DNA of 64,000 bases from Ignavibacteriales bacterium (GTDB lineage: Bacteria > Bacteroidota > Ignavibacteria > Ignavibacteriales > SURF-24): assembly GCA_026390815.1 (NCBI GenBank), contig JAPLFH010000043.1:1-64000 (forward strand), written 5' to 3'. Position 1 is the first letter of the stretch. Every line of letters begins with the position of its first letter. The notes under the pieces were generated by a model. The model had not been told where the DNA came from and searched no databases. It saw nothing but the letters and a program-made list of their open reading frames with translations. A program made the position numbers and the translations under genes. This document shows, in pieces, positions 38,985 to 46,266 of the stretch.

Positions 38985-40016
38985 ATGAGTATTCTTTCAG
39001 TTGTAATAATTTCCCTTATAAAAATTTTGGTTGTTATAACAGTTTTACTTTTAACAGTTTCTTATCTTGTTTATTTTGAAAGAAAAATTTCAGCCTGGAT
39101 TCAAAACCGAGTAGGTCCAAACAGAGTGGGCTGGCTCGGATTGCTTCAGCCATTTGCAGATGTGTTTAAATTATTATTTAAAGAAGATATTGTTCCAACT
39201 GTTTCCAACAAATTCATCCACTCTCTTGCACCGTTTATAGCATTATTTGTTGCTTTTACTACATATGCAGTAATTCCATTTGGACCGGATATAAATGTGT
39301 TTGGTCAACAAATACAGCTTGTATTAGCGGATGTAAATATAGGAATTTTGTATGTACTCGCTCTTACTTCGCTTGGAGTTTATGGAATAACATTCGCTGG
39401 ATGGTCCTCAGGAAGCAAATATTCTTTGATTGGCGGAATTCGTTCATCAGCGCAAATGATTTCTTATGAAGTCTCGATGGGATTTTCAGTTGCGGGAGTT
39501 TTACTTTTATCAGAATCATTAAGACCTATTGTTATTGTTCAATCTCAATACGGTTGGATGTGGAATGCGATTGTTCAACCTATCGGGTTTATTACTTTTG
39601 TTGTTTCAGCTTTTGCAGAAACCAATCGTTTACCATTTGATTTACCAGAAGCCGAACCAGAACTTGTAGGTGGTTATCATACAGAATACAGCAGTATGAA
39701 ATTTGCCGGTTTCTTTCTTGCAGAATATGCAAATATGGCTATTGCTGCTGCAATGATTGTAACTTTATATCTGGGTGGCTACCAGTTTCCATATATTGAT
39801 AAGTTTGGGTTATCTTCTGGAGTTACGGTATTAATTCAGGTACTATCTTTTCTTTTAAAAACTGCTGCTGTATTATTTTTCTTTATTTGGATTCGTTGGA
39901 GCATTCCACGATTCAGATATGATCAATTAATGAATCTTGGCTGGAAAGTAATGTTCCCGCTTTCATTAATAAATATTATTTGGGTTGCTGCACTTATTAT
40001 GATTTTCAAAATTTAA
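38985..40016 (+). CDS. nuoH: NADH-quinone oxidoreductase subunit H
   Basis: 343 residues, about 8 TM helices. The family signatures [20 protein letters not shown] (about 29-48) and [19 protein letters not shown] (about 205-223) are intact, including the quinone-site acidic residues. It joins the membrane arm to the peripheral arm and forms part of the quinone chamber. Confidence 0.95.
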
Positions 40017-40068
40017 TTTTTTCTCTTCTTCCATTAAGGAAGAAACAGAAATAGAGGCTTTGGTTTTT

Positions 40069-40563
40069 ATGGCATTGAAGAAAAGAAAAAAAGATTTAAA
40101 TTTTCTTGAAAAGATGTATATCCCAGAGATTGTAAAGGGATTGGGGCTTACGCTTAAAAATATGTTCAAGCCCAATGTTACAATGCAATACCCAGAGGAA
40201 AAGTTTCTTCCGTCTGCATCCTATCGAGGTCGGCCGGTATTGGTACAAGAAAAAAATGGTGGTGAACGATGCGTTGCCTGTGGTTTGTGTTCCCGCGTTT
40301 GCCCTTCTTTAGCAATCGAAGTTCAGGCTGCTGAAACCCGGCTTGAAAAGGAAAGATATCCGGAAAAATTTGAGATAAATATGCTTCGCTGTATCTTTTG
40401 TGGATTTTGTGAAGAAGTTTGTCCTGAAGAAGCAATAGTAATGAGTAAGGATTATGAATTAGTTTTTACAAACCGACAAAATGCTATATTTGGAAAAGAT
40501 AAATTACTTGTTCCGATTGATAATATAAAAGATCGGTTAGAATATTTACGAAATTTTAAATAG
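40069..40563 (+). CDS. nuoI: NADH-quinone oxidoreductase subunit I
   Basis: 164 residues from the ATG at 40069 (AGAGG 11 nt upstream; a TTG at 40060 is too close to it). Two CxxCxxCxxxCP ferredoxin motifs, [12 protein letters not shown] (about 69-80) and [12 protein letters not shown] (about 108-119), bind clusters N6a and N6b. With G and H it completes this small nuo cluster; subunits A-F and J-N are not in the window. Confidence 0.93.
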
Positions 40564-40717
40564 TTGTTTTTTTTATGAGGGGATAATTTTAAAATAAGTA
40601 GTAACCTGATTATGGGAAGTTGGATGTCTAATTTTTTCATGATCAAAATGCCACTAGTATTTCTCTCCCCATCTTTGTGATAGTGCTTTTGTTTGAAACA
40701 AATGGAATTGAATATAG

Positions 40718-42259
40718 ATGCTTTCCAAAATAATTTCTTGCGCCACTTACGGTATTGATGCCTATCTTGTTGAGGTTGAGGCTAACTGTGAAAAAAATAT
40801 TCCCGGGTTCATAATTGTTGGACTTCCGGATAATGCTGTTAAAGAAAGTAGAGAAAGAGTTATTGCAGCAATTAAAAACAGCGGGCTCGATATTCAATTA
40901 AAAAAAGTTACTGTTAATCTTGCTCCAGCCGATATAAAAAAAGAAGGCAGTTCATTCGATTTACCTATCGCCATCGGTCTTCTTGCAGCTAATGAAAAAA
41001 TTACCTCAACAGATTGGCTTGAAGATACTGTTTTTCTTGGAGAACTTTCACTTGATGGAAACCTAAGACCGATTAAAGGCGCCTTATCAATTGCTGCTGA
41101 AGCCCGGCATAAGGGTATTAAACGGATTATTTTACCGCAAGAATCAGCCAATGAAGCTGCTATTGTTGATGGAGTGGAAGTTTATGGTTGTAAATCGCTC
41201 TTTGAGGTTGTTGAACTGATAAATGGCGAAAAGGAAATGGAAACCATAAAAGTGAACAAAGATGAAATTTTTAATCAGGTAAATAAATATCAAATTGATT
41301 TTTCGGATGTTAAAGGGCAGGAAAATGTAAAGCGTGCTTTGGAAATTGCTGCCGCAGGTGCACACAATATTTTAATGATAGGTCCACCGGGATCTGGCAA
41401 AACAATGTTAGCAAAGAGATTCCCAACTATTTTGCCACCACTTACATTTGAAGAAGCATTGGAAACTACAAAAATTCATTCTGTAGCTGGAATTTTATCA
41501 AGAGAAAAAGCTTTAGTTACAGAAAGACCTTTTAGAAGTCCACATCATACTACTTCCGATGCGGCATTAGTTGGCGGTGGTTCTTTTCCTCGTCCGGGGG
41601 AAGTATCATTTGCGCATCATGGAGTTTTATTTTTAGATGAATTACCGGAATTTAAAAAAAATGTTTTGGAAGTTTTAAGACAACCATTAGAAGATGGAAG
41701 GGTTGTCGTTAGCCGGTCCAAAATGTCCCTCGAGTTTCCAGCCAATTTTATGCTTGCCGCAGCAATGAATCCTTGTCCATGTGGTTTTTATTCTGATCCC
41801 ACCAAAGAATGTTCTTGTACACCTTTTCAAATTCAAAAATATATGGCAAAAATTTCTGGTCCATTGCTCGATAGAATAGATATTCATATTGAAGTTCCAG
41901 CAGTAAAATACAAAGAACTTTCCACTTCAGTTAAAGGAGAATCATCTGCAATTATTAGAGAACGCGTAATCAAGGCGCGGGAAGTTCAAATTAACCGATT
42001 TTCAAAACTAAAGCATATTTATAATAATGCTGACATGAGTTCTAAAGAAGTTAGACAATTCTGTACATTAGATAACTCTGGTTCAGAAATACTGAAAATG
42101 GCAATGACTAAGTTAGGTTTATCAGCCCGGGCTTACGATAGAATACTGAAAGTAAGTCGGACTATAGCCGATTTAGAAAATGCGGAGAATATCCTGCCTA
42201 ATCATATAAGTGAAGCAATTCAATACCGTACTTTAGATAGACAATTATGGAACCGTTAA
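40718..42259 (+). CDS. YifB/ComM-type Mg-chelatase-like AAA+ ATPase
   Basis: 513 residues. The N-terminal Lon-S5-like domain ([19 protein letters not shown], with [14 protein letters not shown]) is followed by an AAA+ core with Walker A GPPGSGKT (about 221-228) and Walker [11 protein letters not shown] four-Cys-like patch [17 protein letters not shown] and a C-terminal Mg_chelatase_C helical domain end the protein. The best characterised homologue, ComM, is a helicase acting in natural transformation. The gene is alone; no dprA follows here. Confidence 0.92.
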
Positions 42260-42342
42260 ACATTAAAGCCATGATAAAAATTATATACTTTCCTTTATTC
42301 GTAATTTAGCCTTAAATCAAGCCCTAAAGTAAATTATTTTGA

Positions 42343-42348
42343 TATAAT
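42343..42348 (+). promoter_or_regulatory. Candidate -10 box for the tRNA-Tyr/Gly cluster
   Basis: TATAAT lies 55 bp before the first tRNA gene within GATATAATATTGC. No good -35 box is at 17 bp, so it is only a possible promoter. Confidence 0.3.
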
Positions 42349-42402
42349 ATTGCTTTTTAAAATAAACTGGAATATATTTGAAGTTCATTTATTGTACAAG
42401 TC

Positions 42403-42486
42403 GGGCGGACGCCGGAGTTGGAGAGCCGGGGCGGACTGTAAATCCGTTGGCAAGCGCCTTTGGGGGTTCGAATCCCTCGCCGCCCA
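42403..42486 (+). tRNA. tRNA-Tyr (GTA)
   Basis: 84 nt with the long variable arm of class II tRNAs. Acceptor GGGCGGA pairs with GCCGCCC except at the last pair. The anticodon loop CTGTAAA gives GTA. T arm is GGGGG-TTCGAAT-CCCTC. No encoded CCA. First gene of a Tyr-Gly-Thr-Trp cluster. Confidence 0.92.
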
Positions 42487-42582
42487 CGGATTGTTCATAT
42501 TGATGATTGAAAACTTGATTCTATTATAAAAAAAAAATTTTCAATTGTCAATATTCTATGAAGTTAGATGGTCAATTTTAGT

Positions 42583-42656
42583 GCGGGAGTAACTCAGTTG
42601 GCTAGAGTCACAGCCTTCCAAGCTGTTGGTCGCGGGTTCGAGTCCCGTCTCCCGCT
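42583..42656 (+). tRNA. tRNA-Gly (TCC)
   Basis: 74 nt, acceptor GCGGGAG paired fully with CTCCCGC, anticodon stem CAGC/GCTG with loop containing TCC, T arm CGGG-TTCGAGT-CCCG. No encoded CCA. A defective copy of its D and T arms follows 250 bp downstream after a GIY-YIG gene. Confidence 0.95.
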
Positions 42657-42660
42657 CTAA

Positions 42661-42918
42661 GTGAATTATGCAATGTATATATTGCAAAGTCTGAAAGATG
42701 GAAGATATTATATAGGTTCCACATCAGATGTAAGAAAAAGGTTTGAATATCATAACACTGGAAGAACAGGTTATACAAAGAAATATCAACCGTGGGTTCT
42801 TATTTATTTTGAAGAATTTGAGACAAGAGCAGAAGCTGTAAGACGAGAAAAATATCTTAAATCACAAAAAAATATTAAGAGGTTTTTGGAGTCAGTTAAT
42901 GTCAACTCAGTTGGCTAG
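42661..42918 (+). CDS. Small GIY-YIG nuclease-domain protein
   Basis: 85 residues from a GTG (an ATG at 42673 is an alternative). It is a lone GIY-YIG domain of the UvrC/SLX1/YhbQ type: YILQSLKDGRYYIGST holds the YIx...YIG strands, then R in DVRKRFEYHN and the EAVRREKYLKSQK helix with the catalytic Glu. It starts 4 nt after the tRNA-Gly without a good ribosome binding site and ends NSVG-stop, encoded by the D arm of a tRNA-Gly remnant, the TAG being the D-loop GGCTAG. It is therefore physically fused to tRNA sequence. Confidence 0.85.
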   Translation: MNYAMYILQSLKDGRYYIGSTSDVRKRFEYHNTGRTGYTKKYQPWVLIYFEEFETRAEAVRREKYLKSQKNIKRFLESVNVNSVG

Positions 42919-42975
42919 AATCATCCCGCAATTCAGCGGGATTGGTCGCGGGTTCGAGTCCAGTCTCCCGCTCTA
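42904..42975 (+). pseudogene. Degenerate tRNA-Gly copy with replaced anticodon arm
   Basis: The D arm (AACTCAGTTGGCTAGA) and T arm plus 3' acceptor (GGTCGCGGGTTCGAGTCC to CTCCCGCTCTA) repeat the intact tRNA-Gly with only 2 changes. The 5' acceptor strand is missing, and the anticodon arm is replaced by a 7-bp hairpin ATCCCGC-AATTCA-GCGGGAT (42923-42942). It cannot be a working tRNA. The D arm doubles as the end of the GIY-YIG coding sequence. Confidence 0.85.
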
Positions 42976-42991
42976 CTAATTTATGTAATTC

Positions 42992-43064
42992 GCTGACGTA
43001 GCTCAGTTGGTAGAGCACATCCTTGGTAAGGATGAGGTCACCGGTTCAATCCCGGTCGTCAGCT
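42992..43064 (+). tRNA. tRNA-Thr (GGT)
   Basis: 73 nt. Acceptor GCTGACG/CGTCAGC fully paired, anticodon arm CATCC-TTGGTAA-GGATG gives GGT, T arm CCGG-TTCAATC-CCGG. No encoded CCA. It precedes rpmG. Confidence 0.95.
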
Positions 43065-43093
43065 CAAAAAAAAATATATATAGTAGAAGAAGT

Positions 43094-43243
43094 ATGAGAG
43101 AAATAATAACATTAGAATGTACAGAGTGTAAAAGAAGAAATTACACTACAACCAAAAATAAACGTTTACACCCAAGCCGCGTTGAGTTTAAGAAATATTG
43201 CCGCTGGGATAAAAAACACACTATTCATAAAGAAACCAAATAA
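43094..43243 (+). CDS. rpmG: Ribosomal protein L33
   Basis: 49 residues from the ATG at 43094. A longer in-frame ORF starts inside tRNA-Thr and is not real. Sequence [20 protein letters not shown] through HTIHKETK is L33. It keeps the first CxxC (CTEC) but the second pair is reduced to YCRWD, so it is an intermediate between the zinc-binding C+ form and the C- form. It lies between tRNA-Thr and tRNA-Trp, upstream of secE. Confidence 0.93.
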
Positions 43244-43248
43244 ATTGT

Positions 43249-43322
43249 ACGAGAGTAGCTCAATTGGCTAGAGCAGCGGTCTCCAAAACCGCAGGTTGGG
43301 GGTTCGAGTCCCTCCTCTCGTG
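43249..43322 (+). tRNA. tRNA-Trp (CCA)
   Basis: 74 nt. Acceptor ACGAGAG/CTCTCGT fully paired, anticodon arm GCGGT-CTCCAAA-ACCGC gives CCA, T arm GGGGG-TTCGAGT-CCCTC with one wobble. It precedes secE by 15 bp, the common bacterial order. Confidence 0.95.
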
Positions 43323-43337
43323 CGAAGAATAAAAATT

Positions 43338-43520
43338 ATGAAAGAAAAAATAATCAATTTTTTTAATGATGTTGTCAAGGAAATGAAAAAGGTTACTTGG
43401 CCAACTCAGGAAGAACTAAAAGAATCAACTACTGTCGTAATAGTTGTTTGTCTTATTATTGCAGCCTTTACATATCTTATTGATATGGCAATCACTCAAA
43501 TATTTAAAGGGATTTTTTAG
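43338..43520 (+). CDS. secE: Preprotein translocase subunit SecE
   Basis: 60 residues from the ATG at 43338; an upstream ORF extension lies within tRNA-Trp. The conserved amphipathic helix FNDVVKEMKKVTWPTQEEL leads into one TM segment (VVIVVCLIIAAFTYLIDMAI). It is the minimal single-TM SecE, partner of SecY in the Sec channel. nusG follows at once. Confidence 0.93.
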   Translation: MKEKIINFFNDVVKEMKKVTWPTQEELKESTTVVIVVCLIIAAFTYLIDMAITQIFKGIF

Positions 43521-43528
43521 GCTTGATG

Positions 43529-44065
43529 ATGGAATTGAAGTGGTATGTGGTTAGGACTTTTTCCGGGCATGAGAACAAAGTAAAGTCTTTAATTGATGTT
43601 GAACTTAAAGATAATATTCAATTAAAAGCAAAAATTCAGGATGTTTTAGTTCCTACTGAAAAAGTATTTGAAGTTAAAGATGGAAAAAAGAAGACTAAAA
43701 ATAAAAATTTCTTCCCTGGATATATTTTAGTTCAAGCTGATTTAGACAATCAGGTTAAAGATTTCATCCTAAATACTCCATCAGTTATGGGGTTTTTAGG
43801 GACAGGAAAAAATCCAAATCCTCTTCAACCAGATGAAGTTAAAAGAATAGTTGGTAGATTAACTCAAGATCAAGACTCTGAAAGGATGGAAACTATCTTT
43901 AGAGTTGGAGATTTTGTTAAAATAAATGATGGTCCGTTCAACAATTTCTCTGGGTATATTCAAGAAGTAAATGAAGAAAAAATGAAAATAAAAGTTATGG
44001 TTTCAATATTTGGAAGAAAAACACCAATTGAAATCGATTTTGTTCAGGCAGAATTAGAAAAATAA
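43529..44065 (+). CDS. nusG: Transcription termination/antitermination factor NusG
   Basis: 178 residues from the ATG at 43529, chosen because TAGG lies 7 nt upstream; ATG at 43526 and TTG at 43523 are alternatives. The NGN domain starts WYVVRTFSGHENKVK and includes FFPGYILV. The KOW domain (RVGDFVKINDGPFNNFSGYI, about 125-145) completes it. It couples RNA polymerase to Rho or ribosome S10. Confidence 0.95.
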   Translation: MELKWYVVRTFSGHENKVKSLIDVELKDNIQLKAKIQDVLVPTEKVFEVKDGKKKTKNKNFFPGYILVQADLDNQVKDFILNTPSVMGFLGTGKNPNPLQPDEVKRIVGRLTQDQDSERMETIFRVGDFVKINDGPFNNFSGYIQEVNEEKMKIKVMVSIFGRKTPIEIDFVQAELEK

Positions 44066-44091
44066 GGTAGAATTTAATAATAGGTTAAATT

Positions 44092-44517
44092 ATGGCAAAG
44101 AAAATAACTGGATTTATAAAATTGCAAATTCCCGCTGGTAAAGCTAATCCATCACCACCTGTTGGACCTGCTCTAGGCCAAAAAGGTGTTAATATTATGG
44201 AGTTTTGTAAGCAATTCAATGCTCGTACCGCTGACAAAGGAGGTTTAATAATTCCAGTTGTTATCACGGTTTTTTCTGATAAATCATTTACGTTTATTAC
44301 GAAAACACCACCAGCAGCAGAATTACTTAAAAAGGCAGCAAAAGTTGAAAAAGGTGCAGCAGAACCAAATAAAGTGAAAGTTGCAAAAGTTACTAAATCT
44401 CAAGTAAAAGAAATTGCTGAAATGAAAATGCCCGATTTAAACGCTAATGATATTGACCACGCCATGAGTATGGTTGCAGGTACTGCAAGAAGCATGGGTT
44501 TTTCAGTAGAAGAATAA
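44092..44517 (+). CDS. rplK: Ribosomal protein L11
   Basis: 141 residues, full length. It starts [20 protein letters not shown] and carries [22 protein letters not shown], the thiostrepton/GTPase-centre region, and the C-terminal rRNA-binding end ([18 protein letters not shown]). First gene of the rplKAJL group behind nusG. Confidence 0.97.
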
Positions 44518-44555
44518 ATACTTTAACTCTGTTTAAAGATAAAAGGATTTGAATA

Positions 44556-45254
44556 ATGAAAGTTTCTAAAAGAATTAAATCAGCAAAAGCAAAAGTAGAT
44601 TTAAAAAAAGATTATAATCTTGATGAAGCAGTCAAGAAATTAAAAGAAGTATCAAATGTTAAGTTTACTGAATCTTTGGACTGTGCAATTAGATTAGGTG
44701 TAGATCCTCGACACGCCGATCAAATGGTTAGAGGAACAGTGAGTTTACCAAATGGAACTGGAAAAGAAGTTAAAGTGTTAGTAGTTGCTAAAGGTTCAAA
44801 AGCTCAGGATGCACTTGATGCAGGAGCTGATTTTGCTGGGTTTGAAGAATATTTGGAAAAGATTAAAGGTGGATGGGCAGATATTGATGTAATTGTAGCT
44901 ACACCGGATGTGATGGCAGATTTAGGAAAACTTGGTAGAATATTAGGTCCAAAAGGATTGATGCCTAATCCTAAAAGTGGTACTGTTACTATGGATGTTG
45001 CTCAGGCAGTTAAAGAAGTTAAAGCTGGCAAAATAGAATTCAGAGTAGATAAAACCGGAATAATAAGTACTTCATTAGGTAAACTTTCGTTTCCGGAAGA
45101 TAAATTGGTTGAAAATGTAAGAGCATTTTTAACTACAATTATAAAAATGAAACCGTCTTCGGCAAAAGGACAATATGTTAAAAGCCTCTATCTTTCTACT
45201 ACAATGGGACCAGGCTTAAAAATTTCCCGCGATGAAGTGGCAATTATTAAATAA
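44556..45254 (+). CDS. rplA: Ribosomal protein L1
   Basis: 232 residues with the L1 signature around [20 protein letters not shown] and [15 protein letters not shown]. It forms the mobile L1 stalk at the E site and in many bacteria represses its own operon. The gap to rplJ (45255-45319) carries an AT-rich inverted repeat, ATAAATAAA / TTTATTTAT (45271-45297), which might act in L10-leader control. Confidence 0.97.
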
Positions 45255-45319
45255 GAATTTACGCACTCATATAAATAAATGCTTCTAGTTTATTTATTTA
45301 AAAATGATTTGGGAGAATA

Positions 45320-45841
45320 ATGGACAAATCAGAGAAAAACGAAATAATCTCTCAGATTAAAGAACTTATCAATAACTCCTCTGCCATTTATTTGGTAGAT
45401 TACAGCAAAATCAATGTAGAAGACATTAATCGTCTTCGAAAAGAATTTCGTAAAGAAGGAGTTAAATATAAAGTCTTTAAGAATACACTTTTCAAAAAAG
45501 CCTTAATCGAAATTCAAGGTTATGAAAAGTTTAATGATCTGTTAGTAGGAATGTCTGGTTTTGCATTTGCAAAAGATAATGCTACAGCACCGGCTAAAGT
45601 TATCAAGAAATTTTTTGATACTACCGGAAAATTTGCTCTTAAAGGTTGTTATATAGAAACTCAATTTTTCGAAGGAACGCAGCTTGATGTATTATCAACA
45701 CTGCCTACCAAAGCAGAAATAATTGCAGGAATTATTGGTAGTCTTAACTCTCCAGCATCTGGAGTAGTTGGTGCAATTGGCGCCGTAATCAGAGATCTCG
45801 TTAGTGTAATAGACGCTATCGAACAAAAAAAAGCAGCATAA
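45320..45841 (+). CDS. rplJ: Ribosomal protein L10
   Basis: 173 residues. N-terminal rRNA-binding domain (SAIYLVDYSKINVEDINRLR then YKVFKNTLFKKAL) and the C-terminal helix that holds L7/L12 dimers (VVGAIGAVIRDLVSVIDAIE). It is the base of the L12 stalk. rplL follows by 44 bp. Confidence 0.96.
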   Translation: MDKSEKNEIISQIKELINNSSAIYLVDYSKINVEDINRLRKEFRKEGVKYKVFKNTLFKKALIEIQGYEKFNDLLVGMSGFAFAKDNATAPAKVIKKFFDTTGKFALKGCYIETQFFEGTQLDVLSTLPTKAEIIAGIIGSLNSPASGVVGAIGAVIRDLVSVIDAIEQKKAA

Positions 45842-45885
45842 ATAAAATTTGTTGAACGGAAAAACAATTTCAGGAGAATATAAAA

Positions 45886-46266
45886 ATGTCAGAAAAAATT
45901 GCAGAACTTGTAGAGAAAATTAAAGGTTTAACTCTCTTAGAAGCATCTGAATTAAAGAAAGCACTTGAAGAAGAATTTGGTGTTACCGCAGCCGCTCCAA
46001 TGATGATGGGAGCAATGCCTACTGCTGCAGCCGCAGCAGCTCCAGTAGAAGAAAAAACTGAATTTGATGTAAATCTAATATCTGCTGGCGAAAAGAAAAT
46101 TAACGTAATTAAAGTTGTACGCGCTCATACCGGTTTAGGATTGAAAGAAGCAAAAGACTTAGTTGATGGTGCTCCAAAAACAGTTAAAGAAGCTGTTTCT
46201 AAAGATGAAGCTGAAAAACTTAAAAAAGAATTTGAAGAAGCTGGCGCAACAGTAGAGATTAAATAA
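45886..46266 (+). CDS. rplL: Ribosomal protein L7/L12
   Basis: 126 residues. The N-terminal dimer domain ([20 protein letters not shown]), Ala-rich hinge (about 35-55) and C-terminal factor-binding domain ([18 protein letters not shown]) are all present. It recruits EF-G and EF-Tu to the ribosome. A strong hairpin follows before rpoB. Confidence 0.97.

Follow-up and report, generated by a model that had tools for sequence, protein, structure and literature searches.

The phage T4 gene segB, a free-standing GIY-YIG homing endonuclease gene, is located at tRNA-Arg/tRNA-Ile (PMC13096335; PMC2988022). SegB of T4 and T6 cuts DNA of the tRNA region and drives segmental amplification (PMC13096335; PMC2988022), and it amplifies the phage tRNA-Tyr against a tRNA-cleaving defence (PMC13096335). 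In phages, SegB homologues are enriched beside tRNAs, with no isotype preference (PMC13096335; PMC2988022). A literature search that left subscription papers and preprints out of its scope returned SegB and no bacterial tRNA/GIY-YIG element.

Here we describe a locus in a window of 64,000 nucleotides (the whole stretch of DNA analysed), part of a bacterial family for which phage T4/T6 SegB is the nearest known case and which would work on similar lines. In both, a free-standing GIY-YIG gene is found between or beside tRNA genes, and the bacterial family also meets the SegB-type trait of a present/absent polymorphism at one fixed site. Unlike SegB, the bacterial elements are chromosomal and occur in many copies, their protein has one domain of ~80–90 aa, their lineages are faithful to one isotype, and the unit includes two tRNA copies, one intact and one broken by a hairpin. 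The sequence similarity to the phage endonucleases is only marginal.

ICEs, genomic islands and prophages at tRNAs likewise have a tRNA site regenerated at one junction and a partial copy at the other. The elements described here differ from them in being ~0.3 kb long, with a GIY-YIG nuclease as the sole gene and no integrase nearby, in occurring in both mirror layouts, and in having a displaced copy altered by a hairpin. With REP/RAYT they share a small nuclease gene and dispersed palindromes that can occur without the gene, but the enzyme is GIY-YIG instead of HUH/Y1, and there is specificity for the tRNA isotype. The HUH/Y1 tyrosine transposase that accompanies REP palindromes is missing from the unit, whose only gene is the GIY-YIG. 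The best matches among solved structures were the UPF0213/YhbQ GIY-YIG proteins (PDB 1YWL, 1ZG2), single-domain and of the same size, with Slx1 matching weakly. Unlike for the bacterial family, no tRNA association or mobility is described for the UPF0213 proteins in their PDB records, to which this comparison was limited (records only, not loci).

The tRNA-Gly locus

The gene order in the window was tRNA-Tyr, tRNA-Gly(TCC), GIY-YIG ORF, tRNA-Thr, an L33-like ORF, tRNA-Trp, secE and nusG, all on the + strand. The intact tRNA-Gly (anticodon TCC), which is the occupied target gene, was located by ARAGORN and Rfam at 42583–42657 (+), and its sequence was that of the empty-site relatives L131–L133. 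Rfam agreed with ARAGORN also on tRNA-Thr and tRNA-Trp. The GIY-YIG nuclease ORF (42661–42918, +; ORF list and Pfam) starts 3 nt past tRNA-Gly if the GTG at 42661 is used and 15 nt past it if the ATG at 42673 is used. It ends at 42918 with a TAG stop codon belonging to the D arm of a second, broken tRNA-Gly copy (42904–42973, +; alignment to tRNA-Gly). This copy has a D arm, a hairpin, a T arm and the 3' acceptor strand, lacks the 5' acceptor strand, and aligns with the intact gene at ~81% over 88 columns (E ~1e-14). The anticodon-arm sequence CAGCCTTCCAAGCTG is exchanged in it for a perfect hairpin, ATCCCGC-AATTCA-GCGGGAT (42923–42942, no strand assigned); L114, L082 and L196 have a hairpin at the same place. 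The downstream flank of the site is tRNA-Thr (42992–43065, +; ARAGORN), which directly follows tRNA-Gly in empty relatives.

The succession of intact tRNA-Gly, GIY-YIG ORF and copied D arm, T arm and 3' acceptor, which the first-pass annotation had described, was borne out by ARAGORN, Pfam and the alignment; the arrangement is correct and far beyond chance. The annotation had placed the ORF within 4 nt of the tRNA, which holds for the GTG start and fails for the ATG. It had also called the second copy rearranged. The copy is present, and its rearrangement is the replacement by a hairpin, which the annotation had not seen. No integrase gene was found among the ORFs of window positions 40000–46000, the unit being a single ORF of ~85 codons. 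A group I intron or another known RNA was ruled out, as neither the window nor the related loci had an intron match in Rfam; the uninterrupted tRNA at the locus also counts against a group I intron. Between tRNA-Tyr and tRNA-Gly there was an A/T-rich imperfect palindrome (42497–42554; inverted repeat, E ~6e-7), possibly a terminator.

The GIY-YIG protein

The window ORF matched Pfam GIY-YIG (PF01541) with 63.5 bits (E 2.4e-17; cut-off 22.6), and its TIGR01453 score was below the cut-off of that model. The match to a PHROG homing endonuclease family was marginal (E 4.5e-4 only). Phage sequences gave just five matches, all weak, and a phage origin of the element was discarded on these grounds. 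In 77 tRNA-associated domains the catalytic residues were nearly invariant, with the two Tyr kept in 73 and 76, Gly, Arg and His in all 77, and Glu in 75. The dN/dS between relatives, where computable, was 0.05–0.24. From both results it follows that the proteins are used. As far as codon comparisons can tell, they are under purifying selection with the catalytic residues kept.

Occupied and empty sites

Because the Tyr-Gly-Thr-Trp-secE-nusG order was conserved over the order Ignavibacteriales, the site in the window could be compared directly among genomes. Among 62 loci of the order that were retrieved via nusG and had both Gly and Thr resolved, the Gly–Thr junction held a GIY gene in four and was empty in 58. 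Two further occupied genomes came from the GIY search. A vertical pattern in which all relatives shared the arrangement, without any empty site, would have refuted the first-pass annotation; this was not what we found. The comparison of occupied and empty Gly–Thr junctions that it had proposed gave three empty genomes in the window's own family (G002, G003 and G004, with spacers of 40–80 nt), and genus g9 had one occupied and one empty genome (G009 and G030, respectively). Its other proposal, a search for GIY-YIG ORFs flanked by tRNA fragments in related genomes, showed that the layout recurs across many genomes and at around a dozen types of tRNA.

Further pairs were found at tRNA-Pro and tRNA-Cys. 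At tRNA-Pro(CGG) of genus g6, G006 carried three units and its close relative G065 none; G054 was also empty. The 100 nt upstream of tRNA-Pro were 99% identical between G006 and G065, and the divergence started at the first base of the tRNA, the body of which differed (L234/L235; 83%, ~13/76 nt). Since the body differs and the upstream sequence is nearly the same, the tRNA-Pro allele was replaced exactly from the tRNA start, with undetermined polarity. This pair suggested that a recoded tRNA, resistant to cleavage, comes with the element in every case. We rejected this idea, because the Gly and Cys tRNAs were unchanged and the tRNA-Pro type of G006 was the common one in the order. At tRNA-Cys of genus g13, two different units were present in G041 and none in G073, with identical intact tRNAs; a terminator-like hairpin followed the last broken copy in G041 and the tRNA-Cys in G073. 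In samples not picked by GIY, 7 of 29 genomes had a unit at tRNA-Pro(CGG) and 1 of 30 had one at tmRNA; outside these samples, the tmRNA of the window's genome is occupied as well. Judged by the retrieved loci, site occupancy is patchy and empty alleles are common.

Relics were seen at some GIY-empty Gly–Thr junctions (L148, L151, L155 and L130), including hairpin-bearing broken tRNA-Thr copies. In L151, two exact broken tRNA-Thr copies were located between tRNA-Gly and tRNA-Thr.

Distribution and layouts

The window's genome (4.5 Mb) gave seven GIY-YIG matches, counted, as all genome-wide numbers here, from searches and retrieved loci. Four were small stand-alone genes, all adjoining RNA genes, namely Pro(CGG), tmRNA, Gly and Leu(CAG), and each had the adjoining RNA gene repeated on its far side as a broken copy. 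The chance of this four-out-of-four pattern was ~1e-10. In the tmRNA case, the copy comprised the last ~40 bases of the tmRNA and carried a palindromic insert within its T loop. The three remaining matches had no tRNA within their 3.2-kb loci.

In a survey of 116 genomes of the order, most had 3–20 GIY-YIG matches, some of which were spaced in exact tandem periods (289, 317 and 450 bp). The analysed set comprised 128 loci with 140 GIY domains. Identical units formed tandem arrays of three in L056, three in L069 and five in L070, from which tandem amplification of the units can be read. Units and arrays were also present in the single-contig genomes G006, G020 and G034, and an assembly artefact was therefore dismissed.

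Two mirror-image layouts were recognized within the order, always on the strand of the tRNA. In the '3-side' layout the intact tRNA is followed by the ORF (mostly 8–70 nt on) and then by the broken copy. In the '5-side' layout the ORF comes after a broken 5' copy, and the start of the intact tRNA falls between −37 and +7 nt around the stop codon, except for one locus, where it is at +94. As the alignments place it, a unit sits at a tRNA gene, on the same strand, with an intact tRNA at one junction and a hairpin-bearing broken copy at the other. Outside the order, the same layout was found in Flavobacterium (Arg, Val, Met, Phe), in one Chitinophagaceae genome and in one Omnitrophota genome. F. 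hibernum and ATCC 35103 are among the Flavobacterium carriers of these loci.

Association with tRNA isotypes

Genes were counted as tRNA-associated when a tRNA or tmRNA on the same strand was within 250 nt, or when they belonged to a tandem array starting there. On the protein tree, 67 of the 76 domains of the tRNA group (group A) that had enough flank were beside a tRNA or tmRNA. For the other main GIY-YIG group the count was 4/48, and for its palindrome-array clade 0/28; with the latter count, a general closeness of small ORFs to tRNAs could be rejected.

The isotype labels (13 states, 55 loci) required 16 changes on the protein tree, compared with at least 35 in 2000 shuffles (mean 40.5). 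The tree had few columns and many weak forks; the labels are nevertheless far from random on it, and part of the agreement may come from vertical descent. The best explanation that the protein sequences offer is that each GIY-YIG lineage of a large family would be specialised on one tRNA isotype or on tmRNA.

Hairpins in the broken copies

By strict automatic criteria, a foreign GC-rich hairpin was present in 32 of 51 broken copies, compared with 4.2% of 1000 flank segments matched in length. Of the remaining copies, most also showed one on inspection by eye. The four Gly elements whose copy spans the anticodon arm had the hairpin at one spot, reading GAGTCA-(TCCCG..CGGGA)-TTGGTCGC with varying inner letters; the window copy has GAATCA where the other Gly elements have GAGTCA. 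In eight Cys copies a stem of six pairs was kept at one position, and three of these pairs had changed on both sides. With loops cut to 3 nt for this count, none of 500 shuffles reached the covariation score of the stem.

The outer motif TCCCG..CGGGA was common to the hairpins in broken tRNA copies. As TCCCGN{3,12}CGGGA, it occurred 59 times in the window's genome, the control pattern having no occurrence. Its sites included terminator-like sites, an RNase P RNA-like sequence, the tmRNA body and solo broken tRNA copies. In the unbiased tRNA-Pro sample, broken copies were found at 4 of 7 loci with GIY and at 1 of 22 without (p=0.007).

Four hairpins of the TCCCG..CGGGA type were located in the RNase P RNA-like sequence of the window's genome (L214, ~477–800). 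The same genome also had broken copies with such hairpins beside an intact tRNA and without GIY: a solo tRNA-Ala (L213, ~1501–1555), a solo tRNA-Pro(TGG) (L216, ~450) and tandem tRNA-Asp copies (L218, ~405–505).

Units with terminal inverted repeats

Nested within the tRNA group were six members without a tRNA. Four of them had exact inverted repeats of 11–13 bp around the ORF (shuffle maxima 8–10), for example ATCCCGTGAGATA..TATCTCACGGGAT, and a fifth had an 8-bp repeat. These five were inside protein genes, two integrase-like and three four-helix-bundle-like, as judged from the translated flanks. In L117 (~1616–1903) and L126 (~723–1010; coordinates of both oriented on the ORF strand), from two genomes, the units were inserted at the same codon position of the integrase-like genes, HTFRHS^FATHLL. 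The L126 gene also held a 62-bp derivative without ORF, ATCCCGTGAGATA..TATCTCACGGGAT (~1089–1150). In L064, L066 and L120, the units split the four-helix-bundle-like protein genes at conserved motifs. These insertions show that the genes sit on discrete insertable units of ~274–308 bp, and they connect the unit ends with the outer motif that the hairpins of the broken tRNA copies have. Inverted repeats around the ORF were absent from most tRNA-resident units examined, and the idea that they surround every unit was dropped.

Proposed mechanism and alternatives

We consider the feature in the window to be probably a ~0.3 kb single-gene, integrase-free, homing-endonuclease-like mobile element dedicated to tRNA-Gly, whose cleavage and transfer are inferred. 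Homing would begin with a cut by the nuclease in the matching tRNA gene of an empty allele; recombination through the flanking tRNA sequence would then copy the unit in. The missing half of the tRNA would be supplied by the element, the essential tRNA would survive, and the displaced half would persist as the broken copy. A single crossover of a unit made of the GIY gene and a hairpin-bearing tRNA piece, either 3' or 5' of the hairpin, would produce the two mirror layouts, intact-left/broken-right and broken-left/intact-right. The tRNA promoter probably drives transcription of the ORF, and the hairpin probably labels the element's own tRNA piece as neither tRNA nor target, a marking role that we infer. 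The first-pass annotation had also proposed a nuclease-driven, integrase-free element that uses and regenerates the tRNA; empty sites, recurrence and isotype tracking support it, with the cutting and the homing route inferred. Some findings count against homing. The intact Gly and Cys tRNAs beside the nuclease are the same as those in empty genomes, yet under homing the element would have to spare its own tRNA, which is the main gap in this reading. In addition, hairpin-bearing broken copies exist without a GIY gene (L213, L216, L218 and L151), so that duplication might not need this gene.

The main rival to homing is transposition through hairpin ends, which we regard as unlikely, although it has several findings on its side. 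The GIY-YIG protein would be a transposase for units ending in palindromes or inverted repeats, a counterpart of REP/RAYT or IS200/IS605 with GIY-YIG replacing HUH; tRNA genes would be favoured as hairpin-formers, and the hairpins of the broken copies would be units without ORF. The nested clade fits this, with its terminal repeats, defined unit length and location inside protein genes, as do the ORF-less derivative in L126, the motif shared by the broken-copy hairpins and abundant in the genome, and the location of the sister GIY-YIG group in palindrome arrays. On the other hand, most tRNA-resident units have no inverted repeats around the ORF and end in tRNA sequence, and isotype-faithful lineages favour sequence-specific over hairpin targeting.

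That the GIY-YIG genes are mere passengers, gathering in repeats while tRNA genes duplicate and decay alone (slippage, recombination, palindrome insertion), has very little weight in our judgement. It could draw on the hairpin-bearing broken copies without GIY genes and on the palindromes within RNase P RNA-like sequence and tmRNA, but it is contradicted by the excess of broken tRNA-Pro copies at loci with GIY, by sister GIY genes of equal size that shun tRNAs, and by the isotype lineages together with purifying selection. Equally improbable to us is a benefit to the host, with the nuclease retained because it multiplies or protects tRNA genes, in the way that SegB amplifies the phage tRNA-Tyr against a tRNA-cleaving defence. 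SegB itself is a precedent (PMC13096335), and tandem arrays are present in the family; however, the amplified piece combines the GIY gene with a broken tRNA copy and contains no intact tRNA, and the occupancy is sparse and patchy.

If homing by isotype-dedicated nucleases is true, many Ignavibacteria, Flavobacteria and other bacteria have tRNA genes contested by tiny, overlooked selfish DNA, which can enter essential genes without an integrase, and SegB-like homing reaches from phages to chromosomes. It would also explain tRNA pseudogenes beside intact tRNAs, provide a set of compact nucleases that are by nature specific for one or another of about a dozen tRNA genes, and possibly connect the palindromic repeats widespread in bacteria with an enzyme that mobilises them. 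The target of each GIY-YIG lineage is predicted by the lineage itself, which makes the idea directly testable. There is a real chance that the family deserves its own class. More tentatively, and with more doubt than confidence, we propose an undescribed class of minimal bacterial elements, consisting of a ~250 bp GIY-YIG gene with hairpin or inverted-repeat ends and neither integrase nor transposase, that would invade and rebuild essential tRNA genes in an isotype-dedicated manner (a natural 'home and rescue' drive), use a hairpin to disable the displaced copy and shed ORF-less palindromes that end up as dispersed repeats.

GIY-YIG genes in palindromic repeat arrays

The second GIY-YIG group was found within arrays of palindromic repeats (L043, L051, L052, L054, L059, L061 and L123). 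This suggests that common bacterial palindromic repeats are linked to GIY-YIG genes, a causal link not being shown. The repeats of this group were GTCATCCCGAGC..GGGATGAC, CTTCGACTCCGCTCAG..CTGAGCGGAGTCGAAG and CATTCCCGCGAAGGCGGGAATC.
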